Positions 46,895-52,063 of a stretch of DNA of 64,000 nt are shown here, one piece after another. This DNA comes from Actinomycetota bacterium (lineage in GTDB: Bacteria > Actinomycetota > Actinomycetes > JACCUZ01): positions 1 to 64,000 of the forward strand of contig JAVEDI010000093.1 of the NCBI GenBank assembly GCA_030841035.1, read 5' to 3'. The position numbers and the translations under genes were made by a program. Within the stretch, counting starts at the first letter, position 1; every line of letters starts with the position of its first letter. The notes below the pieces were generated by a model. It had not been told where the DNA came from. It did no database searches and saw only the letters and a list, made by a program, of their open reading frames with translations.

Positions 46895-46949
46895 GGAGAG
46901 GGGGCGTGCCTGGGAGGACGCTGGGCGGGGACCCGCTCACCGACGGGCC

Positions 46950-46978
46950 TGGCACTCAGACGGACCGAGTGCTAGATT
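46950..46978 (+). promoter_or_regulatory. groES promoter overlapped by CIRCE 1
   Basis: A CIRCE operator, TGGCACTC-N9-GAGTGCTA, occupies 46950-46974. The same bases give a -35 (TGGCAC, 46950-46955) and, 17 bp on, a -10 TAGATT (46973-46978). HrcA binding here would block RNA polymerase directly. Confidence 0.85.
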
Positions 46979-46983
46979 CACGG

Positions 46984-47010
46984 TTGGCACTCTCGACCTG
47001 AGAATGCCAG
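46984..47010 (+). promoter_or_regulatory. CIRCE 2, HrcA operator downstream of the groES -10
   Basis: TTGGCACTC-N9-GAATGCCAG. The left arm is consensus, the right arm has mismatches. It covers the predicted transcription start, so two HrcA sites flank the -10. Confidence 0.8.
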
Positions 47011-47159: not shown

Positions 47160-49170
<2,011 letters not shown>

Positions 49171-49206
49171 CAGCACACCCGAGGTGGTGTCGGGCGCCCG
49201 GCGGGG

Positions 49207-49212
49207 CACAAT
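49207..49212 (+). promoter_or_regulatory. -10-like element of the MerR-B12 gene (leaderless)
   Basis: CACAAT lies exactly 6 nt before GTG 49219. No ribosome-binding site is seen. Confidence 0.45.
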
Positions 49213-49218
49213 CGCCGG

Positions 49219-50271
49219 GTGCCCGACACGCCACCCTCCCTCCCCGCCGCTGTCGGGGACGGGCTCGACGTCGGTCTCGGCGTCGCCGCGGTGGCCCGCC
49301 GCATCGGCGTGGCCCCTGGCACCCTGCGGACCTGGGCGCGTCGTTACGGCATCGGCCCGACCGGCCACGTGGCCGGTACCCAGCGTCGCTACACCTCAGC
49401 TGACCTCGCCCGGCTGAGCTTGATGCGCCGGCTGATGCTCGAGGGCGTCACTCCCGCCGATGCCGCGCGGGCCGCTCTCGAGGGGCCGGTCAACCCCGCT
49501 CGGCGAGCGCTGCGCCGGGCCCGGGACCGGGCCCGGGACGTGACGTCGGCCTCGGCGGCCGCCGCGTCCGGCGCCGGCCGGCGCAGCCGGGCCGGCGGGG
49601 GCGGGCGGATCGTCGCCCTGCGCGACGCCTCCCCGGCGGCCCGCGGGCTCGCCAGGGCGGCGATGACCCTGGACCCGGCCGCCTGCTCGGGCCTGCTGGC
49701 GACCAGTCTGGCCCGGCGTGGTGTCATCGCGTCCTGGCAGGACATGGTGCTGCCGGTGCTCGTCGGCCTCGGCGAACGCTGGCGCGCGACGGGTCGGGGT
49801 GTCGAGGTGGAGCACCTGCTGACCGAGTGCGTGGAGGACGAGCTGCGGGCGACGACCCGCCGGCTGTCGGCGCCGCGCAACGTCTCGCCCGTGCTGCTGG
49901 CCGCGCCGGCGCCCGAGGAGCACTCGCTGGCCCTGCACGCGGTCGCGGCGGCCCTGGCCGAGCGCCGGGTCGGCGTACGCATGTTCGGCGCGGGTGTGCC
50001 GCTCACCGGGCTCGCCGAGGCGGTGACCCGCACCGGGGCTGCCGTCGTGTTCCTCTGGGCGCAAGGCGCCGGCCGCTGGCACGACCCGGCGATGCTCGAC
50101 GTGCTGCCGGGGATCCGGCCCCACCCGCTGGTCGTGCTGGGTGGTCCCGGCTGGCTCCCGCCCGACGGGCTGCAGGCCGGCGCGCTCGCGGTGCGCCGGG
50201 TGGACGACCTGTCCTCGGCCGTGGAGGTGGTGCTCGTCGGGCTGGGGCTCACGACGCCCCAGGCGCGGTAG
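49219..50271 (+). CDS. MerR-type regulator with cobalamin-binding domain (CarH/LitR-like)
   Basis: 350 residues, GTG start. Residues ~20-85 are a MerR winged HTH (VAAVARRIGVAPGTLRTWAR, then TQRRYTSADLARL). A variable Ala/Arg/Gly-rich linker spans ~90-135. Residues ~136-210 match the four-helix cobalamin-cap bundle and contain W188-x9-E198-H199, the Wx9EH signature of B12 photoreceptors of the CarH type. Residues ~222-345 are the Rossmann B12 domain with E233-x-H235, matching ExHxxG except that the last Gly is Ala. The family represses genes in the dark with adenosylcobalamin. Its targets here are unknown; the gene sits between groEL and bldM. Confidence 0.82.
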   Translation: MPDTPPSLPAAVGDGLDVGLGVAAVARRIGVAPGTLRTWARRYGIGPTGHVAGTQRRYTSADLARLSLMRRLMLEGVTPADAARAALEGPVNPARRALRRARDRARDVTSASAAAASGAGRRSRAGGGGRIVALRDASPAARGLARAAMTLDPAACSGLLATSLARRGVIASWQDMVLPVLVGLGERWRATGRGVEVEHLLTECVEDELRATTRRLSAPRNVSPVLLAAPAPEEHSLALHAVAAALAERRVGVRMFGAGVPLTGLAEAVTRTGAAVVFLWAQGAGRWHDPAMLDVLPGIRPHPLVVLGGPGWLPPDGLQAGALAVRRVDDLSSAVEVVLVGLGLTTPQAR

Positions 50272-50379: not shown

Positions 50380-51297
50380 GTGTTGCGGGTGTCCGCCGAG
50401 CTGGGGTCCCTGCTGGCGGCGGGGGAGCGGGCCGCGTTCCACGGCCGCCCCGCCGCGGGCATGGAGGTGCTCGGGCGTGCCGTCGCGCTCGCTGCCGAGC
50501 GCGGTCTGGCCGCCGAGGCGGCGGCGGCGCGCTGGCTGCTGGCGGTCTGCGCCTCCGCGGCCGGGCAGTTCGGCCGCGCGCTGAGCACCTTGGACCCGCT
50601 CGTCGCCCTCGACCCGGCTGACCCGCCGGAGCGCCGGGTGCTCGCCGCCCTCGGTGAGGCCACCTTCGCCAGCGTGCTGCGGCAGATCGGTCGTCACGCG
50701 CAGGCCCGCACCCACGACGAGCTGGCCCTGGCGCTCAGCGACGCGCAGGGCGAGGCGGGCTTCGACGCCCTGCTCGGGCTGGCCGCCGACGCCGTGGGCC
50801 TCGGCGAGGCCGCCGTCGCGACCGAGAGCCTCGCCGCCGCGCAGTCCCTCGCGCTCGGCCGGTCGGACCGGTGGCGGCAGAGGGTCCGCCTCGGCTGGGT
50901 GCGTGCCGAGATCGCCCTGCTGGAGGGCCGGCCCAGGGAGGCGGTCGAGCTGGCGGGGGCGGCGGTGGACCTGGCCGAGCAGTCCGGCGCGCCGCGGCAC
51001 GTCGCCAAGGGCCTGCTCTTCCAGGGGGTGGCCCAGGTCGAGTCCGGTCGGCTGGACGCCGCCGCGGGCACGCTGCGGCGCGGGGCGCTGCTGGCCGAGA
51101 GCCTCGGCACGCTGCCGCTCGTGTGGCCGTCGCGGGCGATGCTGGGGGCCTTGCTCGGGGGTCGCGCGGACGGGCGGGGTGCCACCTCCCTGGACGTGGC
51201 GCGCCGCGCCGTCTCGCTCATCGCCGAGGACCTGCCGCCCGGGCTGCGCGAGGGCTGGCTCGCCCGCCCCGACGTGGCCGCCCTGCTGGAGACCTGA
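50380..51297 (+). CDS. TPR-like helical repeat protein, function unknown
   Basis: 305 residues; GTG 50380 is used, with another GTG three codons later. The protein is Ala/Leu-rich with repeating ~40-residue helical pairs (AAARWLLAVCASAAGQFGRA, VRLGWVRAEIALLEGRPREA, KGLLFQGVAQVESGRLDAA), like tetratricopeptide units. No catalytic motif, signal peptide or membrane segment is visible. It probably mediates protein-protein contact. It lies between a B12-type regulator and bldM, so a regulatory role is possible but unproven. Upstream, CTCAGTCCCATC is repeated at 50343-50354 and 50357-50368. Confidence 0.65.
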   Translation: MLRVSAELGSLLAAGERAAFHGRPAAGMEVLGRAVALAAERGLAAEAAAARWLLAVCASAAGQFGRALSTLDPLVALDPADPPERRVLAALGEATFASVLRQIGRHAQARTHDELALALSDAQGEAGFDALLGLAADAVGLGEAAVATESLAAAQSLALGRSDRWRQRVRLGWVRAEIALLEGRPREAVELAGAAVDLAEQSGAPRHVAKGLLFQGVAQVESGRLDAAAGTLRRGALLAESLGTLPLVWPSRAMLGALLGGRADGRGATSLDVARRAVSLIAEDLPPGLREGWLARPDVAALLET

Positions 51298-51330: not shown

Positions 51331-51389
51331 GACCCTTTGTTGCGTGCGAGGACTTACGTAACGGCCCGCACGTGCCGATGACCCTTTGT
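51331..51389 (+). promoter_or_regulatory. Repeat and palindrome elements upstream of bldM
   Basis: GACCCTTTGT occurs at 51331-51340 and 51380-51389. Between them lies TTACGTAA (51354-51361), a perfect palindrome. The gap is otherwise GC-rich, so these T-rich words stand out as possible binding sites. No clear promoter hexamers were recognised. Confidence 0.45.
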
Positions 51390-51454
51390 GACGTCGGGAC
51401 GGACCCGTCGGACGCGGAATGAGGTGTGGTGCGCGTGAGCGCTGGGAGACTGTC

Positions 51455-52063
51455 GTGACGACGGTGCTCGTCTGTGACGACTCGCCGCTGGCCCGCGAGG
51501 CGTTGCGCCGTGCGGTGGCCACGGTCCCGGGCGTCGAGCGCGTCCACGTCGCCTCCTCCGGTGAGGAGAGCCTGGCCCGGTTCGCGGTCGACCGTCCCGA
51601 CCTGGTGCTGCTGGACGTCCGCATGCCCGGCATCGGTGGCGTCGAGGCCGCCCGCCGGATGCTGGCCGTCTCGCCGCAGACCGGCGTGATCATGATGACC
51701 ATGGCGGAGGACGTCGAGGGGGTCGCGCGGGCGGTCAACGCCGGCGCCCGGGGCTACCTGGTCAAGGACGCCTCGCGCGAGGAGCTGGTCGCCATCGTCA
51801 CCCAGGCGCTCGCCGACGCGGCGTCGCGCGCCGTCCCGGTGCAGGGCGCCGTACCGGAGGCCGGGCTCCCGGCACTCACCGAGCGCGAGCTGCAGGTGCT
51901 GCGCGGCATGAGCCGGGGCCGCAGCAACGCCGAGATCGGCAAGGAGCTCTACCTGTCCGAGGACACCGTCAAGACCCACGCCCGCCGGCTGTTCCGCAAG
52001 ATCGGCGCCGCGGACCGTGCCCAGGCAGCCGCCAAGGGTTTCCGGTTCGGGCTGGTCCGCTAG
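51455..52063 (+). CDS. bldM: BldM-type response regulator
   Basis: 202 residues from GTG 51455 (MTTVLVCDDSPLAREALRRA), chosen because GGGAGA lies just upstream and the receiver starts there; an ATG at 51419 is in frame. The receiver keeps the acidic pair Asp8/Asp9, the phosphoacceptor-position Asp54 and the Lys of GYLVKDAS. The LuxR-type HTH (LTERELQVLRGMSRGRSNAE ... SEDTVKTHARRLF) ends FRFGLVR. From memory, start, end and HTH closely match Streptomyces BldM, as does the position before guaB. In Streptomyces BldM controls aerial growth without needing phosphorylation. Role here is inferred. Confidence 0.85.
   Translation: MTTVLVCDDSPLAREALRRAVATVPGVERVHVASSGEESLARFAVDRPDLVLLDVRMPGIGGVEAARRMLAVSPQTGVIMMTMAEDVEGVARAVNAGARGYLVKDASREELVAIVTQALADAASRAVPVQGAVPEAGLPALTERELQVLRGMSRGRSNAEIGKELYLSEDTVKTHARRLFRKIGAADRAQAAAKGFRFGLVR

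Follow-up and report, generated by a model that had tools for sequence, protein, structure and literature searches.

Between groEL and a bldM-like gene, the actinobacterial window analyzed here (the whole 64,000-nucleotide stretch) carries a gene that resembles B12-dependent photoreceptors. Does light or B12 status enter a developmental or stress circuit through this gene, and if so, through which target? A preliminary description, made from the sequence by eye, had raised bldM as the candidate. We therefore asked about the protein itself, about its neighbors, and about the promoters that its relatives are likely to recognize.

A LitR/CarH-like regulator with the predicted fold of dark-state CarH

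The gene (positions 49219 to 50271, + strand) starts at GTG and, on orthologue comparison, encodes a LitR/CarH-like MerR regulator of 350 amino acids. The preliminary description had read it as a MerR helix-turn-helix (HTH), a helical cap, and a Rossmann domain, an architecture borne out by Pfam and by an AlphaFold model (mean pLDDT, 86.5). The winged HTH occupies residues 22 to 85 (49282 to 49473, +; Pfam MerR_1, 5.5e-13), with a near-invariant recognition helix TLRTWxRRYG that reads TLRTWARRYG here and so contains RxWxRRY. A four-helix-bundle cap follows at residues 139 to 214 (49633 to 49860, +), placed by Pfam, alignment, and the model, and then a Rossmann B12-binding domain at residues 225 to 341 (49891 to 50241, +), placed by Pfam, the model, and a structure match. 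Pfam B12-binding_2 was matched above cut-off (6.2e-5); Pfam B12-binding (2e-7), at 31.3 bits, fell short of its cut-off of 32.1. When the model was compared with solved structures, the top PDB matches were all Thermus thermophilus CarH (TtCarH), with a TM-score of up to 0.84 and a deviation of about 3.1 Å over the cobalamin domain (CBD), and the model corresponds to dark-state CarH. Superposition on Thermus CarH, the check proposed at the outset, thus recovered the CarH fold.

A search of the window's genome with the cap domain recovered a single regulator of this type; a second match, a frame of 1,267 amino acids, is probably MetH. A plasmid search with the window protein as the query returned no match. 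The window protein scored 65.3 bits with the NCBIfam TransRegCarH equivalog model (NF052513), whose cut-off is 400 bits. That score was reached by no genome of the class, and we set the model aside as too narrow to serve as a classifier for the class.

Conservation of the predicted B12 pocket

Are the residues that hold adenosylcobalamin (AdoCbl) in TtCarH retained? By alignment, W188 in the cap (codon 49780 to 49782, +) corresponds to TtCarH W131, E198-H199 (49810 to 49815, +) to E141 and H142, and E233-x-H235 (49915 to 49923, +) to the lower axial ligand motif E175-x-H177. The His and Trp thus stand at the CarH positions, as the Wx9EH and ExH motifs had been taken to do. Over 108 distinct orthologues, W188 is conserved in 100, E198 in 101, and H199 and H235 in 107 each, and residue 233 is acidic (E/D) in all 108. 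Because of this conservation, the presence of the cap and ligand residues cannot be attributed to chance.

Three positions depart from TtCarH (5C8D, 3WHP), which otherwise shares domain order, fold, and the equivalents of W131, E141, H142, and H177 with the window protein. The first is the upper ligand, His132, which is replaced by Arg189 (49783 to 49785, +) and is His in none of the 108 orthologues. The second is the G/P position of ExHx2G/P, where Ala238 (49930 to 49932, +) stands in place of Gly, as the preliminary description had it; Pro is found there in 75 orthologues and Ala in 30, and the motif as published admits Pro (PMC9304148). Both departures recur in CtMerR of Chloracidobacterium thermophilum (8JBS): its cap Trp is followed by Arg, and Ala occupies its G/P position. 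CtMerR has been crystallized and is a proven AdoCbl photoreceptor, a tetramer that light converts to monomers (PMC11796333). We therefore rejected the loss of His132 as a disproof of photoreception, and the G/P residue is evidently not strictly required. CtMerR differs from the window protein in its HTH and in having all four elements of the SignatureFinder set for light-responsive CBDs (GxxW, EH, GxxH, and GxxxP); the window protein has three of the four, with Pro232 in the GxxH element, as in most of its family.

The third departure is the SxT/V motif, which reads WAQ. Its Ser position is Trp280 (50056 to 50058, +) in 102 of the 108 orthologues and Ser in none. The GG motif is retained as GGPGW (residues 308 to 312; 50140 to 50154, +) and ends in Trp312, which is found in 107 of 108. 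In other B12 proteins these motifs line the pocket for the dimethylbenzimidazole tail, and Trp280 and Trp312 could impede cobalamin binding.

One alternative, which we consider rather unlikely, is that the CarH fold and DNA binding were kept while B12 was abandoned, with a partner protein or another ligand in control. The near-invariance of both Trp residues would fit such a protein, as would the few family members whose cap Trp position is F, Q, N, or H, and there are B12-independent precedents in class II LitR (PMC9758184) and CarA (PMC9304148). Myxococcus CarA is likewise a MerR-CBD protein that acts on CarH-type repeats, but it lost the cap Trp and kept the Rossmann motif, whereas in the window's family it is SxT/V that changed, with the cap motif preserved. 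The conservation of H235, of the acidic residue in ExH, and of E198 and H199 goes beyond what a cofactor-free protein would lead one to expect, and the same Trp residues are present in a Streptomyces LitR from a carotenoid locus, LitR having been reported to require B12 (PMC12705666). Among the members without the cap Trp is a clade with small genomes (L013, L014, L015, L053, and L064) that has Phe at position 188 and retains EH and ExH.

In an alignment and FastTree tree, the window protein groups with Streptomyces LitR, for which S. atratus LitR stands in for that of S. coelicolor in our sequence comparison, and the two have in common Trp280, Trp312, EH, ExH, and the missing His132. In the S. 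atratus locus, litR lies between a divergent ECF sigma gene and carotenoid genes (lycopene cyclase, crtB, and crtI). For S. coelicolor, LitR has been described as a coenzyme-B12 photosensor that acts on the litS promoter, and in S. avermitilis added B12 strengthens both dark repression and light induction (PMC12705666). Trp280 and Trp312 are therefore no argument against LitR function, since the carotenoid-locus LitR of S. atratus has both. Nor is SxT/V strictly required, given this Trp in Streptomyces LitR and V, A, or G at the same position in other actinobacterial CarH-type homologues of the class, which have neither Trp.

The window's genome encodes a PduO-type cobalamin adenosyltransferase together with MetH-like and mutase-like B12 proteins, so AdoCbl can be available in this organism, and freshwater acI genomes encode an adenosyltransferase and the AdoCbl-type ribonucleotide reductase NrdJ. 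These genes would permit the regulator to use B12 but are no proof that it does so. The objection that AdoCbl might be lacking was rejected, the adenosyltransferase being present nearly everywhere among the genomes and NrdJ in acI.

Taken from sequence and model, the identity of the window protein as a LitR-type regulator is well supported, and B12 and light sensing by it is likely, judging from its AdoCbl-holding residues and from its grouping with a published type of B12 photosensor. The light or B12 input that had been proposed for this gene is thus likely; its connection to bldM is not supported, as described below. The locus also differs from that of Streptomyces LitR, whose targets are ECF sigma and carotenoid genes: the window gene lies in a groEL-guaB locus and adjoins groEL, a TPR protein gene, and bldM, with no crt gene nearby, and crtB of this genome is on another contig. 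At one further locus, L120 (G037:C114:117500-122400), the Trp280 clade is represented by two divergent members, which lie within 4 kb of each other and about 3 kb from crtB.

The groEL-bldM neighborhood is an old syntenic block

Do the neighbors point to a target? Gene calls and Pfam placed them as previously listed: groES (47160 to 47465, +) and groEL (47530 to 49170, +) are conserved upstream neighbors, and downstream are a TPR protein gene (50380 to 51297, +) and a gene for a BldM-like response regulator with receiver and GerE domains (51419 to 52063, +), beyond which lie guaB and guaB3. Among 80 loci from named records, the regulator adjoins groEL and/or guaB in 78, the exceptions being two Actinomadura loci. 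The TPR and bldM genes accompany it in only part of the 80; they are absent from acI, in which groEL is followed by the regulator and then by guaB, and are also missing from the block in several other lineages that retain the regulator. The neighbors therefore form an old syntenic block and are not evidence for a circuit that joins the regulator to bldM or groEL.

It is highly improbable that the regulator acts on bldM (or groESL) and in that way makes a developmental circuit respond to light or B12 status. The genes are adjacent on the same strand, and the regulator has been retained in the window despite the loss of whiB3 described below. Against this stand the lineages, acI among them, that keep the regulator with neither bldM nor the TPR gene in the block. 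In addition, no CarH-type operator was found upstream of bldM, groES, the TPR gene, or the regulator, or elsewhere in the window, when it was searched with a position weight matrix (PWM) from the relatives and with a plain model of three TnnACA repeats; nothing scored above shuffled sequence. Control of bldM by the window protein is not supported. For groESL, a CIRCE element with 3 mismatches precedes groES, no such match being expected there, and HrcA control is probable; there are two such CIRCE-like inverted repeats (46949 to 46975 and about 46984 to 47010), conserved in the family. Upstream of bldM (51353 to 51381), the family conserves CTCA/CTTA and, after about 17 bp, GCCGATGA, an arrangement that resembles a sigma-28/WhiG-type promoter.

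A divergent whiB3 gene with CarH-like repeats in its promoter

If not bldM, what does the regulator control? In 68 of the loci, all from relatives, groEL and the regulator are separated by a whiB3/whiD gene, which is on the opposite strand and head-to-head with the regulator. Its best solved relative in a PDB search was WhiB3 (2e-36, versus 4e-15 for WhiB1). The arrangement is that of S. atratus, in which the MerR-B12 gene is likewise divergent from its presumed target; the presumed target in the window's relatives is whiB3, unlike in Streptomyces LitR.

Word counts in the 68 whiB3-regulator intergenic regions yielded one non-coding element, which on the whiB3 sense strand is CTTGAMCAACYTATGAMGCGGTTGTAnnGT. 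Read as a promoter, it is of the sigma-A type (TTGAMC, 17 bp, TAnnGT), and it has T at positions 6, 17, and 28, an 11-bp period, with TGAACA as the first repeat. In published CarH operators, 11-bp repeats of the form nnnnTnnACAn follow one another in tandem and overlap the −35 (PMC9304148), and such CarH-style repeats are present in the −35 and spacer of the whiB3 promoter in 67 of the 68 regions. These predicted sites fit the published pattern, so that a candidate operator like that of T. thermophilus CarH, across the −35, is found in the window's relatives. A second conserved word of the set (TGGGACTGGCAG) was discarded as an operator candidate because it is coding (WDWQ of WhiB3).

The PWM comes from the very loci that it describes, and only the cross-lineage tests are independent. 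Trained without Pseudonocardiaceae, it found the element in 12 of 12 Pseudonocardiaceae, always on the whiB3 strand; trained on Pseudonocardiaceae, it found the element in 48 of 56 regions (1% shuffle threshold). Further copies occur in 18 of the 68 regions, versus 0.1 expected, mostly at a spacing of 25 to 27 bp. Seven of the extra copies point toward the regulator, an orientation consistent with autoregulation. In one family (f5), G038 and G011 additionally have the whiB3-type operator, as an exact copy, upstream of an MFS exporter gene (L217, about 2020, −; L218, about 2023, −), which is a possible second target.

Does the element belong to the regulator or to another factor, for example, WhiB3 acting on its own gene, with the head-to-head order merely old synteny? 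WhiB proteins act near the −35, the element lies within the core promoter, and the window's family retains the regulator with no element, all of which would suit another factor. We nevertheless consider this quite unlikely. In six genomes with whiB3-like genes and no regulator (two of which, G012 and G052, have less certain whiB3 orthologues), there was no site near the gene, with best scores of −7 to −16; a single score of 6.6 in this set was unrelated and far from the whiB3-like gene. The element also has the CarH repeat pattern described above. Four regulator-positive genomes outside the training set scored 4 to 13, and regulator-positive G026, G035, G016, and G039 have weak sites only. Exact motif matches over 60 genomes were confined to genomes that have the regulator, and the whiB3 promoter is the sole exact match in each of the two complete acI genomes (G031, G049). 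Finally, the regulator of Actinomadura-like genomes has moved to a place with no whiB3 beside it, and similar tandem repeats immediately follow it and precede an ECF sigma gene (three sites, one clearly above the shuffle range and one at its edge), which ties the element to the regulator and not to whiB3. The three loci (L046, 10172; L088, 9965; L245, 7379) have the order regulator, CarH-like repeats, ECF sigma gene, a module like litR-litS, and that of L245 additionally carries a gene for a DUF523/DUF1722 protein.

Control of whiB3 by the regulator in the window's relatives is strongly suggested by these conserved, predicted operators. The developmental or stress connection first imagined for this gene therefore finds a place in another form, at the divergent whiB3/whiD promoter of relatives; by way of bldM it is not supported, and in the window's own family the whiB3/whiD partner has been lost. 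More tentatively, at somewhat short of an even chance, we propose that in many actinobacteria, including the abundant freshwater acI, a LitR-type B12 photosensor controls whiB3/whiD through one dedicated divergent promoter, such that light or AdoCbl would set the level of an iron-sulfur regulator of redox and development and not of carotenoid genes. Among the open-license literature searched, we found no paper linking LitR or CarH to WhiB3.

A candidate mechanism and its reach

How might such a regulator work? AdoCbl would be held between the cap and the Rossmann domain with H235 as the lower ligand. In the dark, the holo-protein would oligomerize and cover the −35 and spacer of its target promoter. 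Light would break the Co-C bond and alter the complex; presumably no bis-His state would form, given that the window protein, like CtMerR, has another residue in place of His132. Release or activation of the target promoter would follow. In most relatives that target would be whiB3; the Actinomadura-like lineages have similar repeats before an ECF sigma gene.

Control of WhiB3/WhiD is of wide relevance, from redox sensing in mycobacteria to late sporulation in Streptomyces. If the proposal is correct, a B12/light-type regulator with one dedicated whiB3 operator would be a testable input to WhiB3/WhiD, its reach would extend from soil Pseudonocardiaceae to sunlit freshwater acI, and LitR, so far a regulator of pigment genes, would gain a role in the control of a redox regulator. 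How the cofactor would bind, given Trp residues in the tail-pocket motifs, is worth solving.

Loss of whiB3 in the window's own family

In the window, the gap between groEL and the regulator is 48 bp (49171 to 49218, +) and, unlike in the 68 relatives, holds neither whiB3 nor a CarH-type operator. No whiB3 gene was found in any of the eight genomes of the family at E 1e-20 (several are incomplete, and the absence is uniform), nor was the whiB3-type element found at the window locus and its seven sister loci. One-mismatch motif matches elsewhere were taken as chance or coding: one in G007 lies antisense inside yidC, that in G002 is near-identical to it in sequence, matches in G003 and G006 resemble it, and one in the window's genome, on C44, falls within a reading frame for a membrane protein.

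The reading that we favor, and consider probable, is that the window protein is a LitR-type regulator of the actinobacterial LitR branch whose ancestral target was whiB3 and which has been retargeted or orphaned here. The family is thus a natural experiment in which the sensor stays while partner and site are gone; with whiB3 and its operator lost, the protein would have been kept for some other target. Could it instead be a target-less relic heading for loss? The uniform lack of whiB3 and operator in all eight genomes would agree with that, yet we regard it as very unlikely. The regulator gene is present in all eight and intact in the window, the sisters are 56 to 65% identical to it, and pocket and HTH residues are kept in nearly all of them. 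That of G006 is degraded, with His235 replaced by Tyr and His199 by Arg.
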